The position numbers and the translations under genes are program-made. A stretch of DNA of 64,000 nt from Hyphomonadaceae bacterium BRH_c29 (GTDB lineage Bacteria; Pseudomonadota; Alphaproteobacteria; Caulobacterales; Hyphomonadaceae), in contig LADW01000053.1 in NCBI GenBank assembly GCA_000961695.1, positions 1-64,000 on the forward strand. The letters run 5' to 3'. The notes under the pieces are model-generated. The model was not told where the DNA came from. It searched no databases and was given only the letters and a program-made list of their open reading frames with translations. The stretch's first letter is position 1; every line of letters begins with the position of its first letter. Of the stretch, positions 7,957 through 17,143 are shown in pieces.

Positions 7957-8424
7957 ATGAGCACTGGCAAGACTAAGCTGGATACCGGCCTCGTCCGGGA
8001 ACTCGCCGCCATCCTTCGCGAGGCGGACCTCGGTGAAATCGAGGTGGAACATGAGGGTCTTCGGATCAGGGTCAGCAAGCCGGCCGCTCCGGTTGTGCAA
8101 GCCGCCATGGCTGCGCCTATGCCGGTTGCAGCTGCTGCCGCCGCGCCTGCCCCAGCTGCAGCGCCTGTTGAAGCTGCAGCCGCAGCGTCCGATAACGCCA
8201 TAAAATCGCCGATGGTCGGAACCGCCTACCTCTCGCCGGAGCCTGGCGCCAAAGCCTTCATCAATATCGGTGACAAGGTGAAAAAGGGCGACACGCTGAT
8301 GCTGGTCGAAGCGATGAAGACGTTCAACCCCGTCGAAGCTGACCGGGCCGGAACCGTCAAAGCGATCTACGTTACCGACTCACAGCCGGTCGAATATGGC
8401 GAACCGCTCATTCTGATCGAATAG
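7957..8424 (+). CDS. accB: Acetyl-CoA carboxylase biotin carboxyl carrier protein
   Basis: 155 residues: an N-terminal helical region, an Ala/Pro-rich flexible linker (about 43-78), and a C-terminal biotinyl domain with the target lysine K121 in VEAMKTF. Biotin on this lysine is carboxylated by AccC and then delivers CO2 to acetyl-CoA through AccAD, the first step of fatty acid synthesis. It is separated from accC by one base, so translation is coupled and the stoichiometry linked. AccA and AccD are not in the window. Confidence 0.97.
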
Positions 8425-8425
8425 C

Positions 8426-9805
8426 ATGACCGAACCACGCAACATCCAGAAGGTCCTGATCGCCAACCGCGGTGAGATTGCTTTGCGCATCCACCGTGCG
8501 TGCAAGGAAATGGGCCTGTCCACGGTCGTCGTTCATTCCGAAGCCGACCGCGATGCCATGGCCGTACGCCTGGCCGACGAGAGCGTCTGCATCGGCCCGG
8601 CGCCATCCTCGCAAAGCTATCTCAAGAAATCTCAGATCCTGGCAGCTGCAGAGATCACCGGGGCCGACGCGATCCATCCCGGCTACGGCTTCCTGTCGGA
8701 GAACGCCCAGTTTGCCGAAATGGTCGAAGCACACGGCCTGGCCTTTATCGGCCCGACGGCCGAACATATCCGCATCATGGGCGACAAGATCGCTGCCAAG
8801 CAGGCCATGATCGCGGCGGGCGTTCCTTGCGTGCCGGGCTCCGATGGCGCTGTGACCAGCGTTGCGGATGCCAAAAAGGCCGCCAAGAAAATCGGCTACC
8901 CGGTTCTCGTAAAAGCATCTGCTGGCGGCGGTGGCCGCGGCATGAAGCTCGCGAAGACCGAAGCAGATCTCGAAAACGCTGTCCGCACCGCCAAGACCGA
9001 AGCCAAAGCGGCCTTTGGCGATGATGCGATCTATCTCGAAAAATACCTCCAGGGCCCCCGCCACATCGAAGTGCAGGTCATCGCAGACACGCACGGCAAT
9101 GTGGCTCATCTCTGGGAACGCGACTGCTCGCTGCAGCGCCGCAACCAGAAAGTCTTCGAGGAAGCCCCTTCGCCGGCGCTGAATCAGGCCCAGCGCGAAG
9201 AGATCGGGATGATCTGCGCGAAGGCCATGGAAAAGCTCGGCTATCGCGGCGTCGGTACGATTGAGTTCCTCTATGAAGATGGCCGGTTCTACTTCATCGA
9301 AATGAACACGCGCCTTCAGGTCGAGCATCCCGTGACCGAGATGATCACGGGCATCGATCTTGTGCGCGAGCAGATCCGCATTGCCGAGGGCAAGAAGCTT
9401 TCCTTCCGTCAGGAAGACGTGATGCTGGTCGGCCATGCCATTGAGTGCCGTATCAACGCCGAACACCCTGAGACGTTCGTGCCCTCGCCTGGCCTGATCA
9501 CAGACTTCCACGCGCCGGGCGGCCCCGACGTTCGCCTCGATAGCGCGGCCTATGCCGGTTACCGGATTCCGCCGCACTATGACTCGCTGATCGGCAAGCT
9601 GATCGTGCACGGTCGCACCCGTCGCGAGTGCCTGATGCGCCTGCGCCGCGCCCTGTCGGAGATGGTTGTCGGCGGGGTTTTCACCACGCTCGATCTTCAC
9701 CGGCGGCTCGTGGAAAACGAAGACGTCAAGAATGGCGAATACAACATTCACTGGCTCGAAAAATTCCTCGCAGAGAACAAGCTCTCAGATGAGGAAAAGG
9801 CCTGA
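8426..9805 (+). CDS. accC: Acetyl-CoA carboxylase biotin carboxylase subunit
   Basis: The 459-residue ATP-grasp enzyme carboxylates biotin on AccB using ATP and bicarbonate. It contains the ATP loop [37 protein letters not shown] and the metal/bicarbonate site [14 protein letters not shown]. Length and domain order (pre-ATP-grasp, ATP-grasp, C-terminal) match the single-subunit bacterial form rather than a fused acyl-CoA carboxylase. It lies one base after accB. Confidence 0.97.
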
Positions 9806-9826
9806 CGCGGCGCAGCGTCCAATAGA

Positions 9827-9861
9827 CATGGCCCCCGGCTCACCGGCATATTAGGGCCATG
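9827..9861 (+). promoter_or_regulatory. Stem-loop with mini-ORF enclosing the aat start codon
   Basis: CATGGCCC (9827-9834) pairs perfectly with GGGCCATG (9854-9861), and the right arm contains the ATG of aat. A second small stem CCGG-CTCA-CCGG lies in the loop. The left arm carries an ATG that opens an eight-codon frame (MAPGSPAY, 9828-9854) whose TAG ends four bases before the aat ATG. The spacing of the nearest AGGG to the aat start is poor. Together these suggest control of aat translation by structure or re-initiation, or simply a structured intergenic end of accC. Confidence 0.4.
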
Positions 9862-10524
9862 TCAGCACGTTTCGGCACCCATGACCTGCTCGCCTGCTAT
9901 CGCCGGGGCGTCTTCCCCATGGGCGATGCTCGCGACGACCCGAACCTGTTTCTGGTCGACCCGGACATGCGGGGCATCCTGCCGCTGGAAGCCTTCCACA
10001 TTCCGAAGCGTCTGCAGCGCCGGATCAAGCAGGAACCCTTCCGTGTTACGGCTGACACCGCCTTCTCTCGCGTCATGGAGATGTGCGCTGAGAGTGCCGA
10101 CGGGCGCGAGACGACCTGGATCAATTCGACCATCCTGAACCTCTACAGCGCGCTTCACCGCGAGGGATACGCCCACTCGATTGAATGCTGGGACGATAGC
10201 GGCCAATTGGTCGGCGGCCTCTATGGTGTCTCGCTCGGAGGTGTCTTCTTCGGGGAGAGCATGTTCTCAAGAGCGACCGACGCATCCAAGATTGCGCTCG
10301 CCTACCTCGTCGCTCGGCTCATTGAAGGGGGGTACGTCCTTCTGGACGCACAATTCCACAATCCTCATCTGGAGCAATTCGGGCTGGTGGAAATACCAAG
10401 GGCAGACTTCAAGCGCCGTCTGAAGGTGGCCTTAGAGGTCGAGGCCGACTTCTACTGCGGCAGTTCGGGGTCTGCAGGCTTCACCGGGTCGACGGTCGTG
10501 CAGCGTATCACCCAGATGTCGTAG
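9859..10524 (+). CDS. aat: Leucyl/phenylalanyl-tRNA-protein transferase
   Basis: This 221-residue enzyme transfers Leu or Phe from tRNA to proteins with N-terminal Lys or Arg, marking them for ClpS/ClpAP. Family hallmarks include FPMGD, W-rich substrate-pocket segments, ECWDDSGQLVGGLYGVSLGGVFFGESMFS and DAQFHNPHLEQFG. It follows accC by about 50 bases in the same direction. Its last 73 bases overlap, tail to tail, the 3' end of the oppositely oriented DUF2155 gene. Confidence 0.93.
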   Translation: MSARFGTHDLLACYRRGVFPMGDARDDPNLFLVDPDMRGILPLEAFHIPKRLQRRIKQEPFRVTADTAFSRVMEMCAESADGRETTWINSTILNLYSALHREGYAHSIECWDDSGQLVGGLYGVSLGGVFFGESMFSRATDASKIALAYLVARLIEGGYVLLDAQFHNPHLEQFGLVEIPRADFKRRLKVALEVEADFYCGSSGSAGFTGSTVVQRITQMS

Positions 10525-10916
10525 ACAGGGTGCTCCAGCGCGCTCAGGCCCGGCGAGGACGCAAACATCCAGCCGGAGAAGAGTTCAGGATTGTCCTCGC
10601 TCACCGTCTCGACCTCATTCGCATCAACGGCGGCATCCATCGTTTCGACGGCGACTGGCTGGGTCGAGGCGATCTTGAGGAAGGCTGCGCTTTCGGGCGC
10701 CTCTTCCGGCGGGGTCTGGTAGCAGACTTCAAGCTCCACTTTCAGTGAGCCGAAGACGACGGGTTGTCCAACGAAGACTTCAATGTCCGTCGAGCGGCCC
10801 GTGATCTTATCCAGTGCTCGCAGCGTTGCCCGGTCTTTCTGGACGTAGGTTGCGGCGTGTGCCGCCCCAACCAGTCCTGCAATGACAGCAATCGAAACGA
10901 GCGACCGGATGATCAT
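10452..10916 (-). CDS. DUF2155 domain-containing periplasmic protein
   Basis: 154 residues with an N-terminal signal peptide (RSLVSIAVIAGLVGAAHAA) and the DUF2155 domain: DKITGRSTDIEVFVGQPVVFGSL, a paired-cysteine pattern (VCYQTPPEE ... VIRCTTV) and SGWMFASSPGLSALEHPVYDIWV. The function is unknown. In alphaproteobacteria this family is typically found beside the NDUFA12-like gene and aat, as here. Its start overlaps the mlaD stop by 4 nt, so it is the last gene of a three-gene operon. The 3' end overlaps aat by 73 nt. Confidence 0.85.
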   Translation of the reverse strand: MIIRSLVSIAVIAGLVGAAHAATYVQKDRATLRALDKITGRSTDIEVFVGQPVVFGSLKVELEVCYQTPPEEAPESAAFLKIASTQPVAVETMDAAVDANEVETVSEDNPELFSGWMFASSPGLSALEHPVYDIWVIRCTTVDPVKPADPELPQ

Positions 10917-11446
10917 TGGTAGTCTTCCTGAGGATAGGGATCATTGGATGCGGGCGCCGACGAGGCTGTGCCTGCAGGATCGTCGCCTTTGCTGCCACCA
11001 TTGCCGGAAGCAAAGGACGCAAACAGGGTCAGAATATCCACGCTGCCCCGCGTGTATTGGACTTCACCGGTGCCATCCTGCGCGAGATTGTCGAAGCTCC
11101 CGCCCGGCTGCAGCGCCACATAGGCACCGCCCAGCAGGCCGTCGGTCGAAATGCGCGCGTCTGAGTCGTCCGGCAGCAGCCACTTCTTGTCGAGGCTCAT
11201 GGTCACGACGGCTTCGAATCGCTTCGGATCACCATCGATAGACTTCACAATGCCCGCCTTCACGCCAGCGATGCGGACGTCTGCGCCACGCTCAATGCCA
11301 CTGACATTGTTGAAGCGAGCCGTCAGATCATACTGATCGGCACCAGTCGGAGTGTCTCCGCCGCGCGCGACAGCAAACCAGAGGAACAGGCCGGCGACAG
11401 CGACGACGACGGCGCCTACGAGCGTTTCGAACAGCGACTCACGCAT
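10913..11446 (-). CDS. mlaD: MlaD-type MCE-domain protein, outer-membrane lipid asymmetry
   Basis: 177 residues with a single N-terminal membrane anchor (about residues 6-28) and one MCE domain (about 38-115) with FNNVSGIERGADVRIAGVKAG and DGLLGGAYVALQPGG. The C-terminal tail is low-complexity. MlaD hexamers ferry phospholipids between the inner and outer membranes with MlaFEB and MlaC, none of which are adjacent. It overlaps the upstream NDUFA12-like gene by 8 nt and DUF2155 by 4 nt. Confidence 0.88.
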   Translation of the reverse strand: MRESLFETLVGAVVVAVAGLFLWFAVARGGDTPTGADQYDLTARFNNVSGIERGADVRIAGVKAGIVKSIDGDPKRFEAVVTMSLDKKWLLPDDSDARISTDGLLGGAYVALQPGGSFDNLAQDGTGEVQYTRGSVDILTLFASFASGNGGSKGDDPAGTASSAPASNDPYPQEDYQ

Positions 11447-11831
11447 CAGGCGTCCACGCCTCGTAATCGCCGCTTGCTTTCTGGCGAGTCCCGCCGGTGG
11501 ACAGGCTTCCCTTCGGCTTGGTCGCCCAGGGCGTGCCGGTCATGTTCGGCTTGTGATCGGTTTCCCAATCGCGGCGGTTCAGGGGAGACTTGGTCGGCGG
11601 CTCTTCCACGGTGTGGTGCAGCCAGCCATGCCAGTCAGCCGGCACTTTGGAAGGCTCAGCCAGGCCCTTGTACATCACGTAGCGACGGCGACGGCCTTCG
11701 AGCGAGGGTTTACGCTCCTCGTAATAGCGGTTGCCGTATTCGTCTGTGCCGATGGCGTTCGCGCGCCGTCCGATATCGAACGCAGCGCCCAGCGTGTTGC
11801 CGCTCCACCATGTAAAGATTTGCTTCAGCAT
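11439..11831 (-). CDS. NDUFA12-family NADH:ubiquinone oxidoreductase accessory subunit
   Basis: 130 residues from the ATG at 11829-11831 (MLKQIFTWW). The family core is plain: IGTDEYGNRYYEER, RRRYVMYKG, EPSKVPADWHGWLHHT and the PTKSPL/ HKPNMTGTP end. It is an accessory subunit of alphaproteobacterial and mitochondrial complex I. An open frame continues 12 codons upstream without family support, so I take the internal start. It is the first gene of the NDUFA12-mlaD-DUF2155 operon. Confidence 0.88.
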   Translation of the reverse strand: MLKQIFTWWSGNTLGAAFDIGRRANAIGTDEYGNRYYEERKPSLEGRRRRYVMYKGLAEPSKVPADWHGWLHHTVEEPPTKSPLNRRDWETDHKPNMTGTPWATKPKGSLSTGGTRQKASGDYEAWTPDA

Positions 11832-12019
11832 CGTAAGGCCTGTTCTGCCGTGTGTTGGTGGCCGCAATATGGCCGCTCAGGGGCAACTAATCCATAGCAG
11901 CGCCGCAGACAATGCGCCGCAAATACCTGTGGGCAGGCAGGGCTTGTTGCGGCGTAGCGCTTGCTCCCTGTGGGTTGAGCGGTCACCCTTGCTCAAGTGA
12001 TTCGCTGGGGAGAGACGCC

Positions 12020-14293
12020 ATGGATGACACGCTGGTGATGGAAATCCTTCGCGCAGCCGAATCGGATGGCCTCCTGTCTGAGGAAGTCACGCTATCCGAT
12101 CTATACCGGGCTGCGGGCTGTCGCAGGCGCCCCCTAACGCCGGAATCGCTGAAAGCTGCCACCGCAGCTTGCTCTGCTGCAGCGCTGGTCAGTGTGTCTC
12201 AGCTGGCCTCCGCGGAAATCCTCGAACGATTCGATGACGCGCCCCGCAATGCCGATCTGGCCGAAGCGCTTGCGGCCGGTCTGCCGCAGGATGTGCTCGA
12301 AGAAGCCCTTCGCCAGCCCGGCGGCTTCCAGCGCACCGCTGATTCACTTCGGGCGGCTGCGGTCACCGCCGCCGCGCCCGCCCCAGCCGTGTTTGTCCCG
12401 GCAGACCTCGATCCTGTTCTCGAGCAGCTGGTCATCGAAGCGCTGACCGAGGGCGCCGAAATTGTGCTTGCGCAGGAAGATCTACCCCCGGCTTCAGCGT
12501 CCGCGAGGGTGCTCGACATTGCCATGGCCGTCGGTCCGGATGGCATCGAAGCGGACTATCTCTGCGAAGCGCTGGAGGCGGCCGCGCGTTCCATGTCTAG
12601 CGGCGTCATCGTGATTGCCGGCCTGTCAGCCGCGATCATGTCGCTAGGTGTCGATTATGCGTCACCAGAGGGCACCGCAGCAGCCGGCGCTCTTTGCGCA
12701 CTCGTACGCTCCGGGGCGACGAGCGCCGCGTTCACAGCCACGCACGCAAAAATCCTGAACATCGAGCCCCGCAAGTCAGGCAGCAAACGCGCCTGCGAAG
12801 TCCTTGTCCTTCCGATTGTCGACCTTGGCGCTTACCTGCCCGATTGCGAAAGCGCCGGAACCGCGCCTCTTGCAACCGTTCTGGCCTATGGCGATGAAAC
12901 TCCAACCCTCTCGCGTGCCGGCCGTCTTGGCATCGCCCATCATGCGCCGGAACGGCTGCCCATGGCGCTGGAGCGTATCGCGGCGTCTGGCGAATCCGAT
13001 CTGGACCGCGCGCTCGGCCTGGACCGGTTGCGCGACCGTGGCTTCTCCGAAGTGGCTCTCGACAAGGTCTCCCGCGCTCTTGGCGAAGGCCTGCCCCTGA
13101 ACGCAGCCTTCTCTCGCTGGGTACTGGGAGATGAAGTCATTTCCCAGGATCTGAAGCTCGCGCCAGAGAACTTCGATGCCGATGGTGGCGGTCTCCTGTC
13201 AGCGATCGGGTTTTCCCGCAAAGACATCCAGTCTGCCGAGCAGACGATTGCTGGCGAAAACGGCGATGCGACCGCTGAGATCATGGCTGATTGCGGTCTC
13301 CAGGTCGGGGCAACACCGGGAGCCGAGATCGCTTTTGCCTCGGCCTGCGCAAAGGCACTCGGCGGCAGCGTGACCGTTTCGGTCGGCAGCCGGGGCGGCC
13401 TGGACATGGCGGAAGCCGCGCTGGAGGCCGGTCTCTCGGTCCAGCTCGTTGGTTTCAGAGTCCCTGCTTCGGACGATGTCCGCGAACGCATGGACCACAT
13501 TGTCGCCCTCGCCGAAGAGATCGCAGCAGAGGCTGACGCCCCGGATCACTCGATGGCTGGCGGGCACACTGCCCACAATGGTGTTGCCGCCCGCACGCGC
13601 CTGCCGGACCGCCGCAAAGGCTATATCCAGAAGGCATCTGTCGGGGGCCACAAAGTTTATCTACATACGGGCGAATTCGAGGACGGCTCGCTCGGTGAAA
13701 TCTTCATCGACATGCATAAGGAAGGCGCCGCCTTCCGCAGTCTCATGAACAATTTCGCCATCGCGACCTCGATTGGCCTGCAATATGGCGTGCCGCTCGA
13801 AGAGTTCGTGGATGCCTTCGTGTTCACCCGGTTCGAGCCAGCCGGTGCCGTCACCGGCAATGATCGCATCACGCGAGCGACCTCGATCCTCGACTATATC
13901 TTCCGTGAATTGGCCGTTTCCTACCTCGGACGGGACGATCTGGCGGAAGTGGACGTCACCCATGACGGTCTCGGGCGCGGGGCTGGCGATGCCACTCGCA
14001 CCGAGCCCGCACCCTTCACAGAGGAAGCCGCCCAGATCATCTCACGGGGCTTCTCGCGCGGCCAGCTGCCCGACAACATCGTCATTCTTGACCGGAAACG
14101 CGCCGAAAAACTCGCCGAAGAAGAAGCTGAAGCAGCAGAATCGATTGATGAGGCGGCTGAGGAAGAGCTGAATGCGCCCGACTATCTCGGGGACGCCTGC
14201 CCTGTTTGCGGAAGTTTCACGCTCTTCGAGATCAGTGAAGACGGCGATATCGAGTGCGATACGTGCGGTGAAGAATCCCGGGATCAGAAGTAA
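12020..14293 (+). CDS. Class II ribonucleotide-reductase (NrdJ)-like protein lacking the catalytic core
   Basis: 757 residues. About 190-480 resembles the later part of the NrdJ barrel: [18 protein letters not shown], then [15 protein letters not shown] ... SRWVLGDE ... [14 protein letters not shown]. Residues about 525-650 are the TSCPD domain ([53 protein letters not shown]). The end keeps the NrdJ zinc ribbon at C727, C730, C746 and C749. Genuine NrdJ is about 1200 residues. The first half, the GCN...N cysteine motif, the PTGTI motif and the GTMTVEGAP element are missing, and the terminal redox Cys pair is lost. The frame is intact, with GGGGAGA before the ATG. It cannot reduce nucleotides by the known mechanism; a regulatory or partner role is inference. 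Confidence 0.75.
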
Positions 14294-14434: not shown

Positions 14435-15151
14435 ATGAACCGAGTCCTGCTCAGCCTGTTTTCCCTTGTTTCATTTGTTGCATTTGATGCGACGGCGCAA
14501 GAACAGCCCCGGCCGAGTCAGCCCGTGGCTTGGGCACCGAGCTATGTCGGTTCCTGCGGGGGCTGCAACCTTTCCGGTCGCAATCTGACGGGCTGGACGC
14601 TCAGCGGCGCCAACTATCGCGAAGCCAATCTCGAATTCGCGTTCATGCGCGGCATTCAGGCAATTGAAACGAATTTCGAAGGTATCGTCGCCAACGGCGC
14701 AGATATGCGGGCTGCGGTTCTGACAACTGCAAAGCTGTCAGGTGCCAATCTGGCCAATGCCCGCCTTCAGGCGGTTCAAGGGTCCGGCGCGGAATTCAAG
14801 CAGACGGTCCTGACCGGCGCGAACCTCCAGGGCGCCATGCTGGTTGGTGCCAACTTCGCAGCCGCCAACCTTTCCAATGCATCCGTAGAGGGCGCTGATT
14901 TTTCGGGTGCCAATCTTACAGGCGCAGACCTATCAGGTGCTGTCATGCTGACGGGTATTTTCAACGGCGCCAATCTTTCCCTCACCCGGATGGATGGCGC
15001 TGACGTACGGGGCGCATCTTTCAAGGATGCCCGCTTTGCGGACGCCAATCTGACCGGTCTGAAGGGTTGGCAGGAAGCGGATTTCGCAGGCGCTTGCGTC
15101 TCTGAGCGGACGCTGCTCCCAAGCGGTCTTCACCTGCCTGAGTGCCAATAG
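14435..15151 (+). CDS. Secreted pentapeptide-repeat protein
   Basis: 238 residues with a cleavable signal peptide (LLSLFSLVSFVAFDATAQ) followed by about 25 A(D/N)LXX-type pentapeptides from about residue 50 to 210 (for example GANLQGAML, GADFSGANLTGADLSGA). These form a right-handed quadrilateral beta-helix. A CGGC motif lies just before the helix and two more cysteines lie after it (GACV and PECQ), so disulfides are possible in the periplasm. The function is not predictable from the repeat. It is a single gene ending before a strong bidirectional terminator. Confidence 0.85.
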   Translation: MNRVLLSLFSLVSFVAFDATAQEQPRPSQPVAWAPSYVGSCGGCNLSGRNLTGWTLSGANYREANLEFAFMRGIQAIETNFEGIVANGADMRAAVLTTAKLSGANLANARLQAVQGSGAEFKQTVLTGANLQGAMLVGANFAAANLSNASVEGADFSGANLTGADLSGAVMLTGIFNGANLSLTRMDGADVRGASFKDARFADANLTGLKGWQEADFAGACVSERTLLPSGLHLPECQ

Positions 15152-15179
15152 ACTTTTTGAACAAATAGAAATTTGAAAA

Positions 15180-15208
15180 GCCCGCCCGGCTTCACTATCC
15201 GGGCGGGC
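15180..15208. terminator. Bidirectional rho-independent terminator
   Basis: A perfect 10-bp stem GCCCGCCCGG / CCGGGCGGGC with a 9-base loop is flanked by AAAA on the left and TTT on the right. It serves the pentapeptide gene rightward and aspS leftward. Confidence 0.85.
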
Positions 15209-15215
15209 TTTCGAT

Positions 15216-17048
15216 TCAGGATTTCACTTGCGGCGCGAGACGGATGTTCAACTCACGCAGCTGGCTTTCGTCGACAGGGCTTGGTGCGCCCATCAACAGG
15301 TCGCGCGCCTGGCCGTTCATCGGGAACAGCGTGACATCGCGGATGTTCTCCGCATCCGCCAGCAGCATGACGATACGGTCGACGCCCGGTGCGATGCCGC
15401 CGTGCGGCGGGGCGCCATAGCGGAACGCGTTCAACATGCCGCCAAATTCTGCTTCCACGACTTCCGGTCCATAGCCTGCCATCTCGAAAGCCTTGAGCAT
15501 CACGTCAGGGCGGTGGTTCCGGATGGCACCCGATGACAGTTCGATCCCGTTGCAGACGATGTCATATTGGAAGGCCTTAATGTCGAGGATCTCTTCCTCG
15601 GTCTTGGCCGCGTTCAGGGCCTCCATGCCGCCCTGTGGCATCGAGAACGGGTTGTGGCTGAAATCGATCTTCTTGTGCTCTTCGTCGTATTCAAACATCG
15701 GGAAGTCGACGATCCAGCAGAAGCGGAACACGCCCTCTTCGATCAACTCAAGCGACTTGCCAAGCTCGTTGCGTGCGGCGCCCGCCAGCTTGTAGGCCGC
15801 GCCCTTTGCACCTGCCGAGAAGAACACGCCGTCCCCTGCGCCAAGCCCCATATGCGCCAGCAGAGCGGCCAGATGACCTGCCTCAAAGCCCTTGAGCACC
15901 GGGTCCTGGCTGTCTACGCCGCCGCCATCGGCCTCTTTCAGGCGCGCATAGCCAAGGCCGGGTGCCTGCATCTCTTTCTTGGCCCATTTGTCCATATCAT
16001 CGAAGAACTTGCGGGACTTTTCAGCCGCAGCCTTCGGCGCCGGAATGACGATGACCTTGCCGCCGCCCTTGATGATTTTCGCGAAGATGCTGAAACCGGT
16101 CTTGCTTTCGTCAGCGAAGAAATCGGTCACATCGGAAAGTTCGAGCGGGTTGCGCAGGTCCGGCTTGTCGGAGCCATATTTCGCCATCGCTTCGGCATAA
16201 GGAATATGCACGAACGGTTCAGCCGGGACCGAACGCCCCTTGCCTTCCCAATCAGCAAACTCCTCGAACACACCGCGCATGACCGGTTCAATCGCGCCAA
16301 ACACGTCATCCTGGGTGACAAAGCTCATCTCGATATCGAGCTGGTAGAACTCGCCTGGCGACCGGTCAGCGCGCGCATCCTCATCGCGGAAACAGGGTGC
16401 GATCTGGAAGTAACGGTCAAAGCCGGACACCATCAGCAATTGTTTGAACTGCTGCGGCGCCTGCGGCAGCGCATAGAACTCACCGGGGTGCAGACGCGAC
16501 GGCACGAGGAAGTCACGTGCCCCTTCCGGGCTGGAGGCCGTCAGGATGGGCGTCTGGTATTCGGTGAAGCCCTGCCCGATCATGCGCTGGCGCAAGCTGG
16601 CGATGACCTGGCTGCGCAGGATCATGTTCTTGTGCAGCGTCTCGCGGCGCAGGTCGAGATAGCGGTGCTTCAGGCGGATATCTTCCGGATAGTCCGGCTC
16701 AGCGAAGACGGGCAACGGCAGCTTTTCAGCGGCGCTCTCGATGATCAGCGTTTCGGCGGGCAGCTCGACTTCGCCCGTCGGCAGCTCTGCATTGATCGCC
16801 TCGTCATCGCGCGCAATCAGCGTGCCGGTGACCGTCAGGACGCTTTCAGCCGAGGCGCGCTTGGCGTCTTCGTAGAAAGGCGCGCCTGGGTGGACCACCA
16901 CCTGCGTCAGGCCATAATGGTCGCGCAAATCGATGAACAGGGCACCAGCGTGTTCCCGGCGGCGGTGTAGCCACCCGGACAGTTTGACGGTTTCGCCGAC
17001 CTGGGCCTTGCGAAGTTCACCGCAGGTGTGGGTGCGATAGGCGTGCAT
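15216..17048 (-). CDS. aspS: Aspartyl-tRNA synthetase, probably non-discriminating (Asp/Asn)
   Basis: 610 residues from the ATG at [13 protein letters not shown]; the longer frame adds 17 residues outside the family. The order is an OB-fold anticodon domain (1-110), a class II catalytic core ([45 protein letters not shown]) and the bacterial GAD insertion. At the position that is Leu in discriminating E. coli AspRS and His in non-discriminating enzymes, this protein has H33 (RRREHAG). The lysine typical of discriminating enzymes after ARDE is absent. With gatCAB in the same window, it probably also charges tRNA-Asn with Asp for amidation. Confidence 0.93.
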
Positions 17049-17143
17049 TGGATCAGTCTCCGGAAAAGTCGGTCCAAGTAAAAGCTTAACGGGAGGCAAT
17101 AGCCTCTCGCATTTGTTCTGGCGATGCGATACGCAAGCCCGCG

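Follow-up and report, generated by a model that had tools for sequence, protein, structure and literature searches.

A relative of class II ribonucleotide reductase without its catalytic motifs is maintained across most of the Caulobacterales

At 12020-14293 (+), the window analysed here, a stretch of 64,000 nucleotides from Hyphomonadaceae bacterium BRH_c29, encodes an intact protein of 757 residues that is related to the B12-dependent ribonucleotide reductase NrdJ. Judged from its sequence, this protein (hereafter pseudo-NrdJ) has lost parts needed for ribonucleotide reduction. We consider it quite probable that pseudo-NrdJ is a vertical descendant of the alphaproteobacterial NrdJ, which was disarmed in place and is kept for a second job as a binding or assembly protein, borne by its C-terminal cysteine-rich domain (CRD).

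Results

Loss of catalytic elements

A sequence-only reading had described an uninterrupted 757-codon frame with a good ribosome binding site, in which late-barrel segments, the TSCPD domain and the zinc ribbon are kept, whereas the active-site cysteine, PTGTI, GTMTVEGAP and the final redox cysteine pair are gone. The frame was indeed intact, the kept segments were recovered by comparison with the motif-complete NrdJ L057, all four zinc cysteines were present (Table 1), and motif comparison confirmed the absences.

Table 1. Features of the pseudo-NrdJ gene and its surroundings (positions in the window)
Feature	Positions	Strand	Remarks
Pseudo-NrdJ reading frame	12020..14293	+	757 codons and stop
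Eroded ribonucleotide-reductase barrel, residues 1-489	12020..13486	+	without radical cysteine, PTGTI loop and MTxEGAP
Late-barrel stretch, residues 332-429	13013..13306	+	35% identity to motif-complete NrdJ L057 (741-838)
TSCPD part of the CRD, residues 521-645	13580..13954	+	86% identity to motif-complete NrdJ L057
Zinc ribbon C727/C730/C746/C749, residues 727-749	14198..14266	+	NrdJ redox cysteine pair absent; zinc and redox roles after PMC5704485
Ribosome-binding site GGGGAG	12007..12012	+	read from sequence
GATTC (GANTC), 21 bases 5′ of start	11999..12003	+	a GANTC 18-30 bases 5′ of the start in 30 of 30 genus loci
Conserved upstream neighbours accB, accC, aat (+), DUF2155, mlaD, NDUFA12 (-)	7957..11867		mark the ancestral nrdJ locus
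Downstream neighbours pentapeptide-repeat protein (+), aspS (-)	14435..17099		common to many relatives

When pseudo-NrdJ was compared with L057 and homologues, neither the radical cysteine in NPCxE nor the active-site redox cysteines were found, and the PTGTI substrate loop and MTxEGAP were likewise missing; the MTxEGAP pattern is a weaker marker, which also failed in 7 of 61 motif-complete proteins. The class II N-terminal domain PF08471, present in L057, gave no match in pseudo-NrdJ, nor in its own genome at E 10. Against the NrdJ equivalog NF005736 pseudo-NrdJ scored 308.3 bits, below the cut-off of 1737, and the motif-complete L057 scored 1980; in one membership test pseudo-NrdJ scored 38.8 bits versus 22.8. 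An RNR-like fold was retained in its structure model. Catalytic motifs, whose presence had been named beforehand as a ground for rejecting the pseudoenzyme reading, were not seen in pseudo-NrdJ.

The cysteines of the tail were then surveyed. Of the six tail cysteines of NrdJ, four are proposed to bind zinc and two to shuttle electrons (Loderer et al., PMC5704485). Among 126 homologues (L064, L068 and L083 were left out as duplicates or chimera), the 61 proteins carrying NPCxE and PTGT all had six tail cysteines, and the 62 without these motifs had only four, the redox pair being gone; the remaining three were cut or frameshifted. The electron pair and the active site were thus lost together, the pattern to be expected where catalysis was given up but the zinc fold retained. 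L020 was placed among the 62; the letters PTGT occur in its frame (PTG at frame position 254) and aligned far from the motif. L107 is frameshifted, and L071, L079, L092 and L101 end at contig ends. The contig L083, in which an NrdJ barrel with the motifs leads into a four-cysteine tail of Brevundimonas type, is most likely an assembly chimera.

Locus and origin

Pseudo-NrdJ occupies the orthologous genome position of class II NrdJ. The upstream gene order was alike in pseudo and full-length carriers, namely aroQ-accB-accC-aat-DUF2155-mlaD-NDUFA12 and then nrdJ, with not every gene found everywhere; on the 3′ side the majority of pseudo carriers, and some of the full-length carriers, had a pentapeptide-repeat gene, often followed by aspS. 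Of 100 loci examined (two duplicates included), 33 pseudo and 24 full-length ones had NDUFA12 on the upstream side, a count in which some loci are too short to show NDUFA12 and some full-length loci lie elsewhere in the genome. Since pseudo-NrdJ sits in the slot of the motif-complete NrdJ of other Alphaproteobacteria, NrdJ appears to have been disarmed in place; going by gene order, pseudo-NrdJ is orthologous to NrdJ, has stayed at the ancestral locus and lost catalysis there, and is not a copy.

In a quick tree of 82 rows the form changed once within the order (SH-aLRT 86). A careful tree of 65 rows, made without the zinc tail, also gave one change with a support of 59/0, and its bootstraps gave one change in 56% of 200 trees, with a range of 1-2. 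Because this range runs from one to two across trees, one or two origins of the pseudo form within the order are possible. From the initial 129 rows we had dropped 23 thinned genus rows, L064, L083, L101, L107 and 20 full-length rows without a pattern-found domain start; the careful tree was further without eight long-branch rows, one duplicate and most Bradyrhizobium-type rows.

Distribution in the order and the class

In the genus of the window, pseudo-NrdJ was found without internal stops in all 37 genomes searched, some copies ending at contig ends; among the best matches listed, the genus copies were 63-86% identical, a few of them partial. When 200 Caulobacterales genomes were surveyed, the TSCPD query matched 188 of them with one copy per genome, except for G102 with two pieces, in which the NrdJ match is divided over two frames. 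The full-length catalytic part was present in 48 genomes (40 of family f5 and 8 of f4), all inside the TSCPD-positive 188, and the other 140 had the TSCPD domain without it, that is, the pseudo form only. None of the 200 genomes showed both forms. The TSCPD domain was absent in 12 genomes, of which 11 were also without the full-length enzyme and one (G218) had a broken one; all seven sampled genomes of genus g11 were among these 12. Pseudo-NrdJ can be lost. G218 (L150) presents the reverse case, a 902-residue frame which matches most of the NrdJ barrel and the tail, with a gap in the barrel and no TSCPD domain.

Among the best 80 of at least 595 relatives, which say nothing on frequency, the pseudo form was present in Brevundimonas, Maricaulis and a genome titled Caulobacter vibrioides, and the full-length form in a Robiginitomaculum. 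The frame length of pseudo-NrdJ varied widely among carriers.

In a sample of the class, the TSCPD domain was found in 92 of 142 genomes, and in 85 cases the frame was 1128-1364 residues long (motifs were not checked in each). The other seven were the genome of the window, one with a fragment at a contig end (G282), one with a contig-edge piece that retains NPCS, PTGT and six cysteines (G317), and four genomes with short TSCPD proteins. These short proteins were of 282 aa with four zinc cysteines (G227, L145), 278 aa without zinc ribbon (G316, L144), 530 aa (G245) and 667 aa (G318, a genome rated 10% contaminated), the last two without zinc ribbon and with a strongly diverged TSCPD region (47% and 40% to L057, respectively). 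A PF02867 search of the four genomes revealed one complete barrel each, in a frame of 620-652 aa and about the size of the NrdA of the window's genome, and no intact class II enzyme; in G318, PF02867 also matched the eroded remnant itself. The short proteins suggest further independent disarmings outside the Caulobacterales, a reading tempered by the divergence of G245 and G318 and by the contamination rating of G318. G227 and G316 are alphaproteobacterial genomes of 1.2-1.4 Mb.

Selection and conservation

With five close relatives, for which dS was near saturation, the whole gene gave a dN/dS of 0.053-0.072 and the TSCPD core, where almost no amino-acid change was seen, one of 0.002-0.006. 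With 78 less diverged pairs, the medians were 0.148 for the whole gene and 0.039 for the TSCPD core. The barrel remnant was likewise under purifying selection within the genus. A dN/dS analysis had been proposed along with the sequence-only reading; decay, the other ground named for rejecting that reading, was sought in this way and was not found, and the view of a maintained pseudoenzyme is borne out by the stop-free frames of 37/37 genus genomes, the dN/dS of the whole gene and the near-invariant TSCPD core.

A matched-divergence test compared the 112-residue TSCPD core with neighbouring genes in 93 loci (33 pseudo and 60 full-length; L064, L068, L083, L101, L107 and L131 left out), the pairs sharing sequences and hence not being independent. 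Where NDUFA12 was 50-60% identical, the median identity of the TSCPD core was 0.857 in pseudo pairs (n=157) versus 0.857 in full-length pairs (n=111), and at 60-70% it was 0.893 versus 0.875. Scaled by aat, the medians were 0.839 versus 0.821 at 40-50%, 0.866 (n=133) versus 0.857 (n=36) at 50-60% and 0.893 versus 0.875 at 60-70%; by accC they were 0.875 (n=116) versus 0.857 (n=17) at 70-80%. The direction was reversed with NDUFA12 at 70-80% (0.911, n=35, versus 0.946, n=12) and at 80-90% (0.964, n=28, versus 0.982, n=1). In bins with at least 10 pairs of each kind, pseudo pairs were therefore equal to or slightly above full-length pairs, except for NDUFA12 at 70-80%. As the core is equally conserved in both kinds of pairs, the constraint on the TSCPD domain seems independent of catalysis.

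Other reductases

The search for other reductases, also proposed with the sequence-only reading, revealed two of them over cut-off in the genome of the window, namely NrdA (NF006577, 1031 bits, cut-off 620) and a short class II NrdJ_Z (TIGR02504, 563 bits, cut-off 400), the latter with its own TSCPD domain and six tail cysteines. NrdJ_Z lies at L042 2115-4319 (734 aa) and adjoins, by eye, genes resembling moeA, an NnrS-like membrane protein, moaA and a Crp/Fnr-type regulator. In this genome, rated 94.6% complete, no class II barrel lacking a CRD was found that pseudo-NrdJ could serve; the one other class II enzyme found carries its own TSCPD.

Across the order the short class II match was sporadic, with at least about 34 of 200 genomes (33 clear matches and a weaker one in G208) and at least about 32 of the 140 pseudo carriers; matches were listed to about E 7e-14, and weaker ones are possibly hidden. 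Given this sporadic occurrence, pseudo-NrdJ is not an obligate subunit of NrdJ_Z, and it is unlikely to depend on any other class II reductase as an obligate partner. Of the earlier interpretation, the maintained pseudoenzyme was strongly supported, and the roles suggested with it (regulator, decoy, partner, binder of nucleotides or cobalamin) are conjectural. TIGR02504 was over cut-off in 7 of 11 control genomes.

Upstream signals and regulators

A GANTC site was found 18-30 bases 5′ of the start in all 30 genus loci examined (of 37 genus genomes). GANTC is the methylation site of CcrM, and its position near the start hints at cell-cycle control via CcrM methylation. GANTC sites were also present in some other families of the order, not uniformly, and no consistent site was found in Caulobacteraceae. 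By eye, a GTCACGCT/GGCACCCT-like element precedes the GANTC site in the genus loci (the window and L013-L041).

No NrdR box was seen upstream of pseudo-NrdJ, the best candidate being 10/16. An NrdR-box-like palindrome, ACACTATATGTAGTGT (L043 5926-5941, 15/16 to the consensus), lies upstream of the class I nrdA of the same genome. With a box at nrdA and none at pseudo-NrdJ, any connection with dNTP control is weak. NrdR-type genes were present in 25 of 26 genomes and absent only in G179, which is without TSCPD. A link of pseudo-NrdJ to NrdR was sought and not found: in the 26 genomes NrdR-type genes did not track the presence of pseudo-NrdJ, and no box was seen upstream. In the same 26 genomes all ATP-cone matches over cut-off were in NrdR-sized frames of 154-193 residues, so the class I enzymes of these genomes seem to have no dATP switch of their own; longer frames gave two weak matches, both below cut-off (G143, G227).

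Discussion

Role of the C-terminal domain

The pseudo form is kept in the order, its TSCPD core is as conserved as in motif-complete enzymes, and four genomes elsewhere in the class have a TSCPD protein while no intact class II enzyme was found in them; the C-terminal domain therefore probably does something that does not depend on nucleotide reduction. We lean towards a broader form of this reading, in which the class II CRD would have its own conserved function, separate from both reduction and electron delivery, and this function would have preserved the gene in Caulobacterales and in further alphaproteobacterial lineages after the loss of catalysis. The ancestral NrdJ would have had two jobs, reduction and a second one on the CRD; where class I NrdAB covered reduction, only the CRD job would have been retained. 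Pseudo-NrdJ would then serve in binding and assembly without catalysing, its CRD docking to a conserved partner and its barrel remnant acting as a scaffold. In Stackebrandtia NrdJ, the CRD was reported to be necessary for dATP/dGTP-induced oligomers (PMC5704485); such oligomers are the one published property able to outlive catalysis, and a binding or assembly role was proposed for this reason. The partner likely belongs to dNTP or DNA metabolism, and class I NrdAB is our first guess, albeit a doubtful one; the apparent absence of a dATP switch from the class I enzymes of the 26 genomes speaks for it, and the missing NrdR box against it. When the C-terminal domain was modelled separately, the structure was of poor quality (mean pLDDT 64) and gave no match at E 0.001 or better in a PDB search; a sequence-profile search of the PDB with this domain gave nothing significant.

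A serious possibility, which we do not favour, is that the CRD binds a target outside dNTP synthesis, such as nucleic acid, the ribosome, the replisome or another protein, with the barrel remnant as a mere spacer. The very highly conserved TSCPD core contains basic residues (RRKGYIQK), the zinc ribbon weakly resembles ribosomal protein L37Ae (E 0.18, not significant), and both the missing NrdR box and the widely varying frame length would fit; however, the barrel remnant is also under purifying selection within the genus, and PMC5704485 describes the CRD solely in ribonucleotide reductases. It is very improbable that pseudo-NrdJ is a separate CRD subunit serving a class II reductase elsewhere in the cell, in the manner of NrdJb of Pseudomonas, a genetically separate CRD (PMC5704485). 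The short class II NrdJ_Z encoded in the same genome would provide a client, but it already has a TSCPD domain and a six-cysteine tail of its own, a short class II match was seen in at least about 32 of 140 pseudo carriers, and the redox pair for electron delivery is gone in 62/62 non-catalytic homologues with intact tail. That pseudo-NrdJ is a decaying pseudogene which happens to remain open, as the loss of catalysis and of much of the barrel might suggest, was ruled out, within the reach of sequence evidence, by stop-free frames in 37/37 genus genomes (some cut at contig ends), dN/dS far below 1 and a TSCPD core conserved like that of motif-complete enzymes in the matched-divergence test. 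Nor is it credible that a reductase with a rearranged active site persists behind the RNR-like fold of the structure model, because the radical cysteine, the active-site redox cysteines and the substrate phosphate loop are all gone, and the tail redox pair with them.

The NrdJ of Caulobacter

In Caulobacter, NrdJ (CCNA_01966) is listed under nucleotide reduction and B12 is said to serve dNTP production (PMC6538847); a table of PMC5869019 gives CCNA_01966 as vitamin B12-dependent ribonucleotide reductase. From the genomes of relatives, the Caulobacter crescentus 'NrdJ' CCNA_01966 is probably the pseudo form. A metagenome-assembled genome titled Caulobacter vibrioides has an 899-residue frame of the pseudo form. 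The control genome of Caulobacter vibrioides matched NF005736, where no control genome was over cut-off and NrdA alone can give such a match, and it was not among the control genomes matching the class II N-terminal domain PF08471. No account of pseudo-NrdJ as a pseudoenzyme was found in the titles and abstract openings searched, most subscription papers and preprints being outside this scope.

If the class II CRD does have a function of its own, the Caulobacter protein annotated as a 'B12-dependent reductase' would be non-catalytic and would have a role still to be discovered. Across most of an order, an enzyme supposedly maintained for a single essential reaction persists without it. This points to a hidden second function in a widespread protein, one that can be tested in a standard model organism. 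Annotation is affected as well, since nrdJ-type genes are used to infer both the need for vitamin B12 and the supply of dNTPs.

Comparison with known systems

Pseudo-NrdJ shares a CRD with four zinc cysteines with NrdJd of Stackebrandtia nassauensis and NrdJb of Pseudomonas aeruginosa, whereas Cys-933 and Cys-945, the proposed electron shuttles there, are absent from it (PMC5704485). With the alphaproteobacterial NrdJ (NF005736/PRK07562; Rhodobacter sphaeroides 7B9P) it has in common the chromosomal slot, the TSCPD core, the zinc ribbon, the late-barrel stretch and the RNR-like fold, but it is without the radical cysteine, the redox cysteines, PTGTI, MTxEGAP, the class II N-terminal domain and the tail pair. 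Viral reductase-like proteins without catalysis exist, namely the R1 homologues of cytomegalovirus, and these are likewise reductase relatives retained without catalysis. However, they are class I, viral and of an unrelated lineage, whereas the protein described here is bacterial and class II, is found in most of an order and has the C-terminal domain as its constant part.
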